A DNA stretch of 64,000 bases from positions 1-64,000 of the forward strand of contig JAGRGP010000001.1 of the NCBI GenBank assembly GCA_020445415.1, in the 5' to 3' direction. Position 1 is the first letter of the stretch, and each line of letters starts with the position of its first letter. The position numbers were made by a program, and so were the translations under genes. The DNA comes from Gammaproteobacteria bacterium (GTDB lineage: Bacteria; Pseudomonadota; Gammaproteobacteria; Chromatiales; Chromatiaceae). The notes beneath the pieces were generated by a model, which did no database searches, was not told the origin of the DNA, and saw only the letters and a program-made list of their open reading frames with translations. This document shows, piece by piece, positions 8,244-25,548 of this stretch.

Positions 8244-8261
8244 CTTGGCACATGGTTTGCT
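8244..8261 (+). promoter_or_regulatory. Sigma-54 (-24/-12) promoter for the urea transport and urease genes
   Basis: The sequence TTGGCACATGGTTTGCT matches the RpoN consensus TGGCACG-N4-TTGCW with one change, and the invariant GG (8247-8248) and GC (8259-8260) are exactly 10 nt apart. It lies about 55 bp upstream of the urtA ATG in an AT-rich leader. A strong GAGGAGA ribosome-binding site at 8297-8303 follows. Nitrogen-limitation control through NtrC and sigma-54 is the expected logic for urea uptake. Confidence 0.8.
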
Positions 8262-8314: not shown

Positions 8315-9610
8315 ATGTCGTCTAAAATCGGGCTCACCAAGATATCCCTTTCTATCGGTCTGGCCTCCGGGCTCTTCGTATCGTCGCTGGTACAGGCGGA
8401 GGACACCATCAAAGTTGGTGTTCTGCATTCCCTGTCCGGGACGATGGCAATCAGCGAAACCACGCTCAAGGACACCATGCTGATGCTTATTGAAGAGCAA
8501 AACAAGAAGGGAGGACTATTGGGCAAGAAACTAGAGCCGGTGGTTGTTGACCCGGCGTCCAACTGGCCGCTATTCGCAGAAAAGGCCCGGGAGTTACTGA
8601 GCCAACACCAAGTGGCGGCGGTTTTCGGGAACTGGACGTCGGTGTCACGTAAATCCGTACTGCCCGTATTCGAGGAGCTGAACGGCTTACTCTTCTACCC
8701 GGTTCAATATGAGGGCGAGGAGTCTTCAAAGAACGTGTTTTACACCGGTGCGGCACCCAATCAACAAGCGATTCCTGCTGTCGATTACCTCATGAACGAT
8801 ATCGGGGTCAAGCGCTGGGTGTTAGCCGGCACAGACTACGTTTATCCCCGCACGACCAACAAAATTCTTGAAGCCTATCTCAAGGATAAGGGCGTTAGCG
8901 AAGGCGATATCATGATCAACTACACACCGTTCGGCCACTCTGATTGGCAGTCGATTGTATCGGACATCAAGAAGTTTGGATCCGCCGGAAAGAAAACCGC
9001 TGTAGTCTCCACTATCAATGGCGATGCGAATGTGCCTTTCTATAAAGAGTTGGGTAATCAAGGGGTTTCAGCTGAGACGATCCCAGTGGTTGCATTTTCG
9101 GTGGGTGAAGAAGAGTTGTCGGGTATCGATACCAAACCTTTGGTGGGACATCTCGCCGCCTGGAACTACTTCATGAGTGTAGATAATGAGGCTAACGACT
9201 CGTTCATTGATGCTTGGCATGCCTATATCAAAGACGAAAATCGGGTAACCAACGATCCGATGGAAGCGCACTACATTGGCTTCAACATGTGGGTTAAGGC
9301 AGTGGAAAAGGCAGGTACCACCGATGCTTCGGCGGTGCAAGAAGCTATCATCGGTGTCTCGGTTCCCAATCTGTCCGGCGGTTATTCGGCAATGATGCCC
9401 AACCACCACATCACCAAGCCGGTGCTGATCGGAGAGATCCAAGACGACGGACAATTCGTGACAGTCTGGCAGACGTCTGGGTTGGTTGCGGGAGACGCGT
9501 GGTCGGATTATTTGCCTGGTTCGAAGGACTTGATCTCGGATTGGCGGATGCCGCTGGCTTGCGGTAACTACAACGTCAAAACGGGTAAGTGTTCCGGCCA
9601 GAATTTCTAG
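8315..9610 (+). CDS. urtA: Urea ABC transporter, periplasmic urea-binding protein
   Basis: Periplasmic binding protein that captures urea for the UrtBCDE importer. It has 431 residues and begins with a Sec signal peptide (MSSKIGLTKISLSIGLASGLF, cleavage near VQA-ED). A branched-chain-amino-acid-type binding fold follows, with family segments VGVLHSLSGTMAISE, VVDPASNWP and GLLFYPVQYEGEE. A stem-loop follows its stop, consistent with more binding protein being made than membrane components. It is first in a same-strand run through urease, downstream of a sigma-54 promoter. Confidence 0.97.
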   Translation: MSSKIGLTKISLSIGLASGLFVSSLVQAEDTIKVGVLHSLSGTMAISETTLKDTMLMLIEEQNKKGGLLGKKLEPVVVDPASNWPLFAEKARELLSQHQVAAVFGNWTSVSRKSVLPVFEELNGLLFYPVQYEGEESSKNVFYTGAAPNQQAIPAVDYLMNDIGVKRWVLAGTDYVYPRTTNKILEAYLKDKGVSEGDIMINYTPFGHSDWQSIVSDIKKFGSAGKKTAVVSTINGDANVPFYKELGNQGVSAETIPVVAFSVGEEELSGIDTKPLVGHLAAWNYFMSVDNEANDSFIDAWHAYIKDENRVTNDPMEAHYIGFNMWVKAVEKAGTTDASAVQEAIIGVSVPNLSGGYSAMMPNHHITKPVLIGEIQDDGQFVTVWQTSGLVAGDAWSDYLPGSKDLISDWRMPLACGNYNVKTGKCSGQNF

Positions 9611-22051: not shown

Positions 22052-22714
22052 ATGTGGCTCTCGGGAAAGATACAGCGCATGCCGTCGCCAGAAGAGGCAT
22101 TGCCGGGCCGGAAGGAAGAAATGGTGGTGCCCGAAAAACACTATGTCATGGGCCAGGTATTACGCCCCCCCTTTCCCGAGGGAATGGAAACCGCCCTATT
22201 TGGGTTGGGTTGTTTTTGGGGAGCTGAGCGGCGTTACTGGGAAACTGACGGAGTGTTCAGCACCGCTGTGGGTTATGCCGGGGGATACACACCCAACCCG
22301 ACCTATGAAGAGGTTTGCAGCGGCCTCACAGGTCACAATGAGGTGGTGCGGGTGGTATTTGATCCCTCTCAGGTCAGCTACGAGAAGCTACTCAAGGTGT
22401 TCTGGGAGTCACACGATCCTACTCAGGGAATGCGCCAGGGAAACGATCGGGGCACCCAGTACCGCTCGGGAATCTATGTTGGCAGCGCGGTACAACGGCA
22501 GCTGGCGGAACAATCCAAGGCCCGTTACCAGGTTGCGCTATCTGAGCGGGGACTGGGTGAGATCACTACCGAGATCCTAGATGCGCCGGTTTTCTATTAC
22601 GCCGAGGCCTATCATCAGCAGTACCTGGCCAAGAATCCCGGGGGATACTGTGGCCTGGGAGGTACCGGGGTTGCCTGCCCTGGAACCGGCCGGGTGTCCG
22701 AAAGCGTCACCTAA
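22052..22714 (+). CDS. msrA: Peptide methionine-S-sulfoxide reductase
   Basis: Reduces methionine-S-sulfoxide in proteins and free form. It has 220 residues with the active-site motif GCFWGAE near residue 53 and the conserved GYAGG and [19 protein letters not shown]. Two resolving Cys lie in the C-terminal [14 protein letters not shown], as in the E. coli enzyme. The N-terminal extension of about 45 residues also matches E. coli-type MsrA. The ATG at 22052 follows AAGAGGAACGACT. It is a single gene with no obvious operon partner. Confidence 0.96.
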
Positions 22715-23186
22715 AGCTCGCCGCAAGGCGATAAACCGCGAGGTGTACGGTGGGGTAGGCCGTTACTAGTTGGTTGTACGACCGCTTGCACCTACTTTTC
22801 CGCTCAAAATGGGGGCGTGGGGCAGAGCGATCACAACCAAGCAGCTTTTTACATGCTACCGGTCCACCACAGAGCCTGGAATCCAGCGGGGTAGCAAGAA
22901 CGGCATTTCTCACCCGAAGACATCTGAAGGTCGCGGAAACGGGGTTTCCAGTGCGTCCATTACCTGCGATTTGCTGATGAAAAGTGTGTTCCCAGCCCTC
23001 CAGGCGCGAAGTATTTTCCTTTTAGTGTCAGTAGTTTTTACAGAAATACCTTATAGGAATTAATAAATTAGCTCAACTGATTGATAATTTGTCAAAAACG
23101 CGAAATGGCCCGGATATTGCTGAGCTTAAATTTGTAACTTGTTTGGCAATTTTGCGTTATGGCAGGTTTGATAGGGGCTATCGTAA
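22715..23186. other. Long AT-rich intergenic region upstream of the PEP-CTERM-like gene
   Basis: A 472-bp stretch whose second half (about 23010-23160) is clearly more AT-rich than the rest of the window. It contains the sigma-54-like promoter at 23106-23121, listed separately. Short frames in the first half have no recognisable content. Neither a tRNA nor a clear terminator after msrA is visible. The composition shift could reflect acquisition of the next gene with its leader or simply a regulatory region. Confidence 0.5.
23106..23121 (+). promoter_or_regulatory. Sigma-54-like promoter upstream of the PEP-CTERM-like gene
   Basis: TGGCCCGGATATTGCT fits the -24/-12 consensus TGGCACG-N4-TTGCW with one mismatch (A to C). 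The GG (23107-23108) and GC (23119-23120) elements are 10 nt apart, the invariant spacing. The -12 box is about 67 bp upstream of the ATG at 23187. PEP-CTERM genes in Zoogloea-type bacteria are known to be controlled by RpoN with the PrsK/PrsR pair, so the match is in a meaningful place. Confidence 0.55.
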
Positions 23187-24704
23187 ATGAAGTACTTTTG
23201 TTTGGAACCAAATTCGCCTGGTCTTTCCCCGGGGCACAAATGGCTGCTTTCCGGTATTGCCGTGCTTGGATCGGTTTCGCTGGTGGTCGTCGCATCAAGT
23301 CTGCTGGGAAATCATCAGGCGCCATCATACCGGCCTGCCATACCACTGGGCAAAGCTGTTTCAATTTCAGCTGCCACTGAGACGACTAACCCATCTAACA
23401 GCGCCCTGGAGGAGCTCGAACCCTATTCCGGCGCACCCGTTTGGGGTGAGGCGTTGGCGGACGACCCGGTAACGGGTGAGGCCGAAGAGGAGGAGCTGTT
23501 TGCGGGAATCGGTTATTTCGCTCCGGCGGACTTTATTGCCGGCAATGCTCCCCAGGGGGCTCCGGTAACCCAGCCGAATTATCAATTAAAAAAGCAAGCG
23601 ATAGCAGTGGAAACGGGACGCGGCTTTGGTCCTGGGAAGCGAATAGTAGCGGGACGACCGGCTAGCGGCGGTCTTCCCGTACTTGCAAGCCGCACTCCGG
23701 GCAAGCAGGCCGATGGGCCAGCGTCGTCGCCTGTTAAAGATGTCGCGGGAGATCCGTTGTATCCGGTGCAGAACTCCGCGGTTCCGGGGAGTGATCCTCT
23801 GCCCCAGTCCGTTTCCGTACCACCTGAGGACCCGGTCATCACCACGACCCCGGTTATACCTCCGATTCCGGAAGACGGCCACCCGACCGGGAATCCGGTG
23901 GCCGATTCTTCCCCGAACCATGCTCCAGTTAGTGGGACAGGGCATCCGGCCGATGAGGTGATTGGGGAGTCTCCTTCGGCTCCGAAATCGCCTGCCGTGG
24001 CAGGTAACCCAACCCCGGAAAACAACGGTGGCGGAGGCGGCGAGTCGAGTGATCCCCTCCCGCAGTTGACAGGGCCTGAAATCAGCCAGGTGACGGTTCC
24101 GGATGATGAGTGGTTTTCTCCCGGCAATTCCCCGGGTATCGCGCGGGTCGACGGTGATTTTTCGCTCGATGGAGGTACCTTGCTGTTCGAAATAATGGGT
24201 CCTCTGGTAGGTGACGAATATGATCAGCTGATCGTCGAGGGTATCGCGGAACTCAATTCCGGAAACGTGGTGTTTGCATTCATCAACGGGTACCGTCCGC
24301 TCGGGAGCGACATGTTCGACTTAATTCTCGCCGAGCAGATTCTGGTGAATCTGGATAACGTCAATTTTTACTACGGCCTGTTCGAAGATCCCTATACGTT
24401 GCATGCACCTAGAAATCTTGAGGTTTATAACACACTGGATCTCGGGGATGGGGTGGTAGATGAGATCACCCTTTACGATGGCATCCAAAATCCCAATATA
24501 CCTGGCCAGTTGATGTTTGATGACGTGATGAAGATTGGCTACATGGAGATTCGGGCGCTGGAGCGGGAGCCGGGGTCGGATGAAACATTTACTCCTTTGG
24601 AACTCGGCAGAGCCAATGTGCTGCCAGCACCTGAGTCGATTTTGCTTCTATTTACCGGATTACTGTTAATCGGTACGTTTTGGAGAGGTCGGCTGGACGT
24701 TTGA
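23187..24704 (+). CDS. Proline-rich PEP-CTERM-like surface protein
   Basis: A 505-residue predicted exported protein. A hydrophobic segment at about residues 18-42 (WLLSGIAVLGSVSLVVVAS) acts as signal or anchor. Residues about 150-300 are a low-complexity region rich in Pro, Gly, Ser and Asn with repeated DPV/NPV units. A beta-rich domain at about 305-410 follows, with SPGNSPGIARVDGDFSLDGG and NFYYG; it resembles the SPG-type repeats of autotransporter-like and PEP-CTERM proteins. The C-terminus has the tripartite sorting form: PAPES in place of PEP, a hydrophobic helix (ILLLFTGLLLIGTFW) and a basic end (RGRLDV). Exosortase cleavage and export into the extracellular matrix are inferred. No exosortase is in the window. 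Confidence 0.75.
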   Translation: MKYFCLEPNSPGLSPGHKWLLSGIAVLGSVSLVVVASSLLGNHQAPSYRPAIPLGKAVSISAATETTNPSNSALEELEPYSGAPVWGEALADDPVTGEAEEEELFAGIGYFAPADFIAGNAPQGAPVTQPNYQLKKQAIAVETGRGFGPGKRIVAGRPASGGLPVLASRTPGKQADGPASSPVKDVAGDPLYPVQNSAVPGSDPLPQSVSVPPEDPVITTTPVIPPIPEDGHPTGNPVADSSPNHAPVSGTGHPADEVIGESPSAPKSPAVAGNPTPENNGGGGGESSDPLPQLTGPEISQVTVPDDEWFSPGNSPGIARVDGDFSLDGGTLLFEIMGPLVGDEYDQLIVEGIAELNSGNVVFAFINGYRPLGSDMFDLILAEQILVNLDNVNFYYGLFEDPYTLHAPRNLEVYNTLDLGDGVVDEITLYDGIQNPNIPGQLMFDDVMKIGYMEIRALEREPGSDETFTPLELGRANVLPAPESILLLFTGLLLIGTFWRGRLDV

Positions 24705-25218: not shown

Positions 25219-25548
25219 TCAAATCAGTTGTTGTACGGCCACCATATAGAAGGCAGTGCCCACGCAGATACTGAGTAATGCATGACGCCAGAGCAGATGA
25301 GTGCCAACGGTAAGCATAGCGGCAGTCAGTTCCGGCAGGCCGAAGGGAGAGGTGGCGAATTCGACACTGCCGAAACTGTAGAGGACCAGCAGGGTCATGA
25401 TGGCGGGGGGGATGTAGCGAGCCAGGAACTGAAGCATGGGATGGTCTGCTTTTCCGCTCAGCAGGATGAAAGGGGCTGATCTGGTAAGAAAGGTAACTCC
25501 TGCCATGATCAGGATTACCGGCAGCAGTTCTTGGAGATTGGCCATCAT
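25219..25548 (-). CDS. azlD: AzlD-family small subunit of a branched-chain amino acid exporter
   Basis: A 109-residue membrane protein with about four hydrophobic helices, typical of AzlD/YgaH. It contains the conserved FLTRSAPFIL near residue 20 and the IPPAIMTLLVLYSF helix. AzlC-AzlD pairs (E. coli YgaZ-YgaH) export branched-chain amino acids such as valine. The start overlaps the end of azlC by 4 bp, so the two are made as a pair. The exported substrate is inferred from the family only. Confidence 0.92.
   Translation of the reverse strand: MMANLQELLPVILIMAGVTFLTRSAPFILLSGKADHPMLQFLARYIPPAIMTLLVLYSFGSVEFATSPFGLPELTAAMLTVGTHLLWRHALLSICVGTAFYMVAVQQLI

Follow-up and report, generated by a model that had tools for sequence, protein, structure and literature searches.

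A gene with a variant PEP-CTERM-type tail behind a predicted PrsR/sigma-54 promoter element in a gammaproteobacterial genus

A 505-aa ORF with an ATG start (23187-24704, + strand), located in the 64,000-nt stretch of DNA analysed here (the window; positions 1-64000 of contig C70 of a 3.79-Mb draft genome), very probably belongs, judging from its sequence, to the PrsK/PrsR-RpoN regulon of the XrtA/PEP-CTERM system. On the best reading, the regulatory system would be one that is already known, and this single gene for a PEP-CTERM-type protein would be a further member of it with an ordinary variant of the sorting tail.

The upstream neighbour ends at 22714, so that an intergenic region of 472 nt precedes the gene, and the next ORF of at least 100 aa outside it lies at 25219-25548 on the - strand. 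The protein consists of an N-terminal hydrophobic segment (approximately residues 20-42, read by eye), a Pro/Gly-rich middle, a beta-rich domain and the sorting tail. It had no match in Pfam and NCBIfam, PEP-CTERM models included, even at E 10, and none in plasmid records. Among 92 relative genomes, any match was found in only six, including its own, and a long match only in the genus genome G002. Approximately residues 290-405 (24054-24401, + strand), with the motifs SPGNSPG and GDEYDQL, represent a widespread SPGxSPG...GTEYDQL domain, which was matched in 17 genome contigs from several phyla at an E-value of 1e-3 or lower; five of the 17 proteins that share it have a PEP-CTERM-like tail by eye (L128, L131, L133, L136 and L142). 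An AlphaFold2 model of residues 285-480 was all-beta with a mean pLDDT of 68. Against the PDB, this model matched a beta-helix best (E 0.02); pieces of autotransporter passengers came next at E >1, and no match was at E 0.001 or below. Because the pLDDT is middling and the PDB matches are weak, a beta-helix-like fold is only suggestive. The gene product is probably a surface or matrix protein. In the literature, searched by titles and the beginnings of abstracts, we recognised no description of the gene or the genus.

Haft et al. 2006 (PMC1569441) describe a two-part element that precedes 99 of 167 proteobacterial PEP-CTERM genes, i.e. a 17-nt motif 1 ending in TTTACA, a spacer of 32-92 nt and a sigma-54 motif 2. 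All parts are present on the + strand ahead of the window gene: motif 1, a predicted PrsR enhancer site (TGTCAGTAGTTTTTACA, 23026-23042; 17 nt with TTTACA at its 3' end), a spacer of 63 nt (23043-23105) and motif 2, a predicted sigma-54 promoter of the -24(GG)/-12(GC) type (TGGCCCGGATATTGCT, 23106-23121). A stretch of 65 nt (23122-23186) separates motif 2 from the ATG, and transcription would be expected to start approximately 12 nt after the GC of motif 2.

The pattern TTTACA-N48-78-TGGCN8TGCW occurs at eight sites in the same genome, five in G001 and 13 in G002, compared to 0, 0 and 1, respectively, for the pattern read backward. Motif 1 opens with TGTC or CGTC in 18 of the 26 composite sites from these three genus genomes, and the spacers of these 18 sites measure 63-65 or 73-75 nt. 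The two spacer classes thus differ by about one helical turn, a difference that would suit contact with an activator by DNA looping. Because the frequencies in our initial sigma-54 matrix were general consensus values, the argument rests on matrices built from the genus; these were trained on 16 of the 26 composite sites, leaving out the site under study, the CGTC-type site L083 and the eight sites without TGTC or CGTC. With these matrices, motif 1 ranked first of 127,968 positions in the window and motif 2 sixth of 127,966. Together, the two motifs scored 35.7 bits, whereas the highest score was 20.4 bits in 20 simulated windows of 64 kb and 11.1 bits in 204 600-nt stretches taken from both strands in the rest of the window; none of 2000 simulated upstream regions attained 35.7 bits.

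The closest relative of the protein in the 92 genomes, encoded by G002 (L067/L128), is 48% identical over residues 148-475. The two are alike in architecture and in having an element with a 63-nt spacer, which in G002 reads TGTCGAGCTATTTTACA, 63 nt, TGGCACCTTGTTTGCA. The G002 gene differs in its stronger -24/-12 site (TGGCACCTTGTTTGCA) and in its canonical VPEP tail, which ends in VPEPGPLMLLMASSLLLLHRFGKRNKG; over their last 30 residues, the two proteins align only loosely.

The tail of the window protein (LPAPESILLLFTGLLLIGTFWRGRLDV, 24624-24704, + strand; ORF C-terminus VLPAPESILLLFTGLLLIGTFWRGRLDV) has a PxP motif, a hydrophobic stretch and a basic end. It reads LPAPES, i.e. E is replaced by A and the Pro-Glu-Pro of the tail start is absent, while the hydrophobic stretch and the basic cluster are present at the extreme C terminus (ILLLFTGLLLIGTFWRGR). 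The family model TIGR02595 did not detect it, giving no match at E 10, nor at E 1 when the genome was searched, and no other Pfam or NCBIfam model reached it either. By contrast, with a tail model derived from the genus, it scored higher (10.3 bits, E 0.004) than any other of the 166 window ORFs, PAPES aligning to PEPAT. For the genus set, drawn from the loci of the best-scoring matches rather than of all matches, 37 tails were gathered; L125 gave none, L100 and L118 were mis-extracted, and 34 were scored (25 PEP, five PAP, two PVP, one PLP and one PES, where L120, mis-anchored in scoring but reading IPAP, is counted as PAP). PxP with a middle residue other than E accounts for 8/34, all from matches above the family cut-off. 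Moreover, the same element precedes genes for one protein with a PAP tail (in G001) and for proteins with PIP tails (in G001 and G002). PxP variants are thus common in the genus and are found behind the element, and we conclude that the tail variant is ordinary for the genus. The variant signal, to which the initial annotation would extend the regulatory link, is therefore not peculiar to this gene. We also weighed whether another enzyme sorts the variant tail; among exosortases, the genome encodes just the one.

Alternatively, the gene could still lie in the PrsR/sigma-54 regulon while its tail has decayed, such that the product, once a PEP-CTERM protein and now drifting, is poorly sorted or remains in the inner membrane. 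The failure of TIGR02595 to match and the VPEP retained by the G002 relative would fit such a history. However, the tail has kept both its hydrophobic stretch and its basic end, 8/34 scored tails of the genus have PAP, PVP or PLP in place of PEP, and the PAP and PIP tails of relatives sit behind a matching promoter; we therefore consider decay unlikely.

The machinery for the preferred reading, a PrsK/PrsR-RpoN regulon member with a variant tail, is encoded in the same genome, where prsK, prsR and an exosortase gene were all found, as was rpoN. The one exosortase is exosortase A (XrtA) with an EpsI domain. PrsK and PrsR score above their cut-offs, and their genes are adjacent on contig C17 and adjoin a gene for the TIGR03013 XrtA-system glycosyltransferase. 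RpoN is present in two pieces at contig ends (L057 and L058, on C174 and C46) that cover model positions 2-364 and 357-434, and the split is most likely an assembly break.

Seven PEP-CTERM tails in this genome are above the cut-off, and upstream matrix scoring took in six of the seven genes; the gene on C102 was omitted because its start codon is unclear. A full element precedes the PEP-CTERM genes on C7, the score of which is biased upward because the site belongs to the training set, and on C34, where the nearest copy of motif 1 has diverged (TCTGATGATTTTTTACA). On C44 (L145:343-2695), the element lies ahead of a gene pair, probably a two-gene operon, of which the second gene encodes the PEP-CTERM protein; the product of the first carries a thrombospondin type 3 repeat. 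Ahead of the genes on C31 and C20, motif 1 and a sigma-54-like site, the latter scored with the initial matrix of consensus frequencies, are both present but at unusual distances; in the upstream matrix scoring, the gene on C75 had neither. Not every PEP-CTERM gene of the genome fits the pattern.

That a sigma-54 promoter at the window gene is served by an activator other than PrsR is conceivable in a genome with many NtrC-type regulators: besides PrsR, 18 matches exceed 160 bits against the PrsR model, all of them under its cut-off. Against this, the upstream motif is motif 1, which is specific to PEP-CTERM genes, has a phylogenetic profile matching that of PrsR (PMC1569441) and is common to the canonical PEP-CTERM genes of this genome. 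We regard a different activator as very unlikely.

The initial annotation had started from the -24/-12 site, and this site is indeed present at 23106-23121: TGGCCCGGATATTGCT has a GG-to-GC gap of 10 nt and departs from TGGCACG-N4-TTGCW at a single position, the fifth base, where C takes the place of A. It is among the weaker motif 2 sites, with CCC where most sites of the genus show CAT or CAC. Matches with at most one mismatch numbered two in the window against 0.67 expected, a count reached by 12 of 100 shuffles; genome-wide, there were 45 against 26 for the pattern read backward. Because these counts are near chance level, the -24/-12 site by itself proves little, and we rejected the match alone as evidence since the genome count is less than twice that of the backward control. 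With motif 1 at the published spacing, the site becomes convincing and the pair lies far beyond chance.

The second one-mismatch match in the window, TGGCACATGGTTTGCT at 8246-8261, is separated by 53 nt from the ORF downstream of it, which starts at 8315, by eye encodes a substrate-binding protein of a urea or branched-chain amino acid ABC transporter and precedes transport and urease genes; it is possibly an NtrC-type nitrogen promoter.

The least probable explanation we weighed, and a highly improbable one, is that the -24/-12 match arose by chance and transcription depends on a common sigma-70 promoter within the AT-rich leader, for although the -24/-12 site alone is near chance level and a 9/12 match to such a promoter (TTAATA-17-GATAAT) lies at 23060-23088, the three sigma-70-like matches in the region are hardly more than in shuffles (mean 1.6, sd 1.2), motif 1 lies at the published spacing and the G002 relative's gene is preceded by a matching element.

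Under control by PrsK/PrsR and RpoN, the sensor kinase PrsK would activate PrsR, which would then bind 23026-23042. With the 63-nt spacer looped out, PrsR would drive sigma-54 RNA polymerase at 23106-23121 to form the open complex. From the transcript of this single gene, an exported protein would be made that is held by its hydrophobic tail; exosortase A would cut the tail at or near the PAP motif, and the cut protein would be passed to the surface or the exopolysaccharide matrix. The element, its spacing, genes for each component and the matching arrangement in the G002 relative are visible in the sequence. Such control had been proposed for this gene initially, and we infer it from motif 1 at its spacing, the machinery genes and the element of the G002 relative. 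A link of this promoter type to PEP-CTERM genes, for the Proteobacteria in general, was already published in 2006 (PMC1569441). With this gene, the regulon gains one more probable member in a genus of Gammaproteobacteria represented here by draft genomes. Moreover, PEP-CTERM-type proteins overlooked by the standard tail model can be recognised by their two-part promoter.

The element also precedes genes of other kinds. In all three genus genomes, it lies ahead of a gene for a conserved protein of approximately 65 residues that ends in DP(D/E)(A/S)YRM(I/V)(I/V)YSWA (L150:1459-1659 on C132 of the same genome, G000; L149:1501-1701 on C88 of G002; L151 on C125 of G001). The element at C132 scored 28.5 bits with a matrix trained without it. 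Two of the three sequences were scanned and had no Pfam or NCBIfam match; a partial match was found in one other member of the family (55 genomes searched), and a search of 369 genomes sampled from the class matched just the genome of the window itself. A DUF5658 membrane protein (PF18902) is encoded behind the element in the same genome (L083, G000:C64:23470-23555) and in G002 (L076, G002:C44:1404-1488), and in G002 the element also precedes a gene for the PEP-CTERM/exosortase system-associated acyltransferase (TIGR03694, 246 bits; L097, G002:C289:80311-80395). Finally, two full elements have no clear ORF close downstream (L146:116-200, i.e. G000:C128:7415-7499, and L093 on G002:C244). At C128, a hairpin and then a T run follow approximately 170-190 nt after the site (by eye), and this element possibly serves a small RNA.

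Tentatively, and with more doubt than confidence, we suggest that the PrsR/sigma-54 element may mark exosortase cargo and accessories better than the tail model does, in which case it would, within this genus, bring to light both proteins whose degenerate PxP tails the single exosortase A still accepts and partners that are not PEP-CTERM proteins, among them the undescribed ~65-residue protein, the DUF5658 membrane proteins and possibly small RNAs. Such targets of the promoter could name new parts of a system for matrix formation that is important in flocs and biofilms.

Two known systems resemble the one described here. In the PEP-CTERM/EpsH system with PrsK, PrsR and PrsT (PMC1569441), motif 1, spacer and motif 2 are shared with the window gene; the spacer is 63 nt here and 62.8 nt on average there, and the distance from promoter to start codon is 65 nt compared to a mean of 71 nt. 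Also shared are XrtA, PrsK and PrsR in the genome and the single-gene arrangement, here behind a 472-nt intergenic region, as most PEP-CTERM genes stand alone in that account. The window gene departs from the near-invariant PEP of that system with a PAP tail that falls below the family model. For pepA of Aquincola tertiaricarbonis RN12, the published account (PMC9850573) shows RpoN dependence, maps the transcription start behind TGGCAC/CTGCTT and calls control by PrsK/PrsR probable. Both are PEP-CTERM genes with a -24/-12 promoter and a predicted enhancer upstream; however, while pepA adjoins prsT with an intergenic region of approximately 85 nt, the window gene is a lone gene on a different contig from prsKR.
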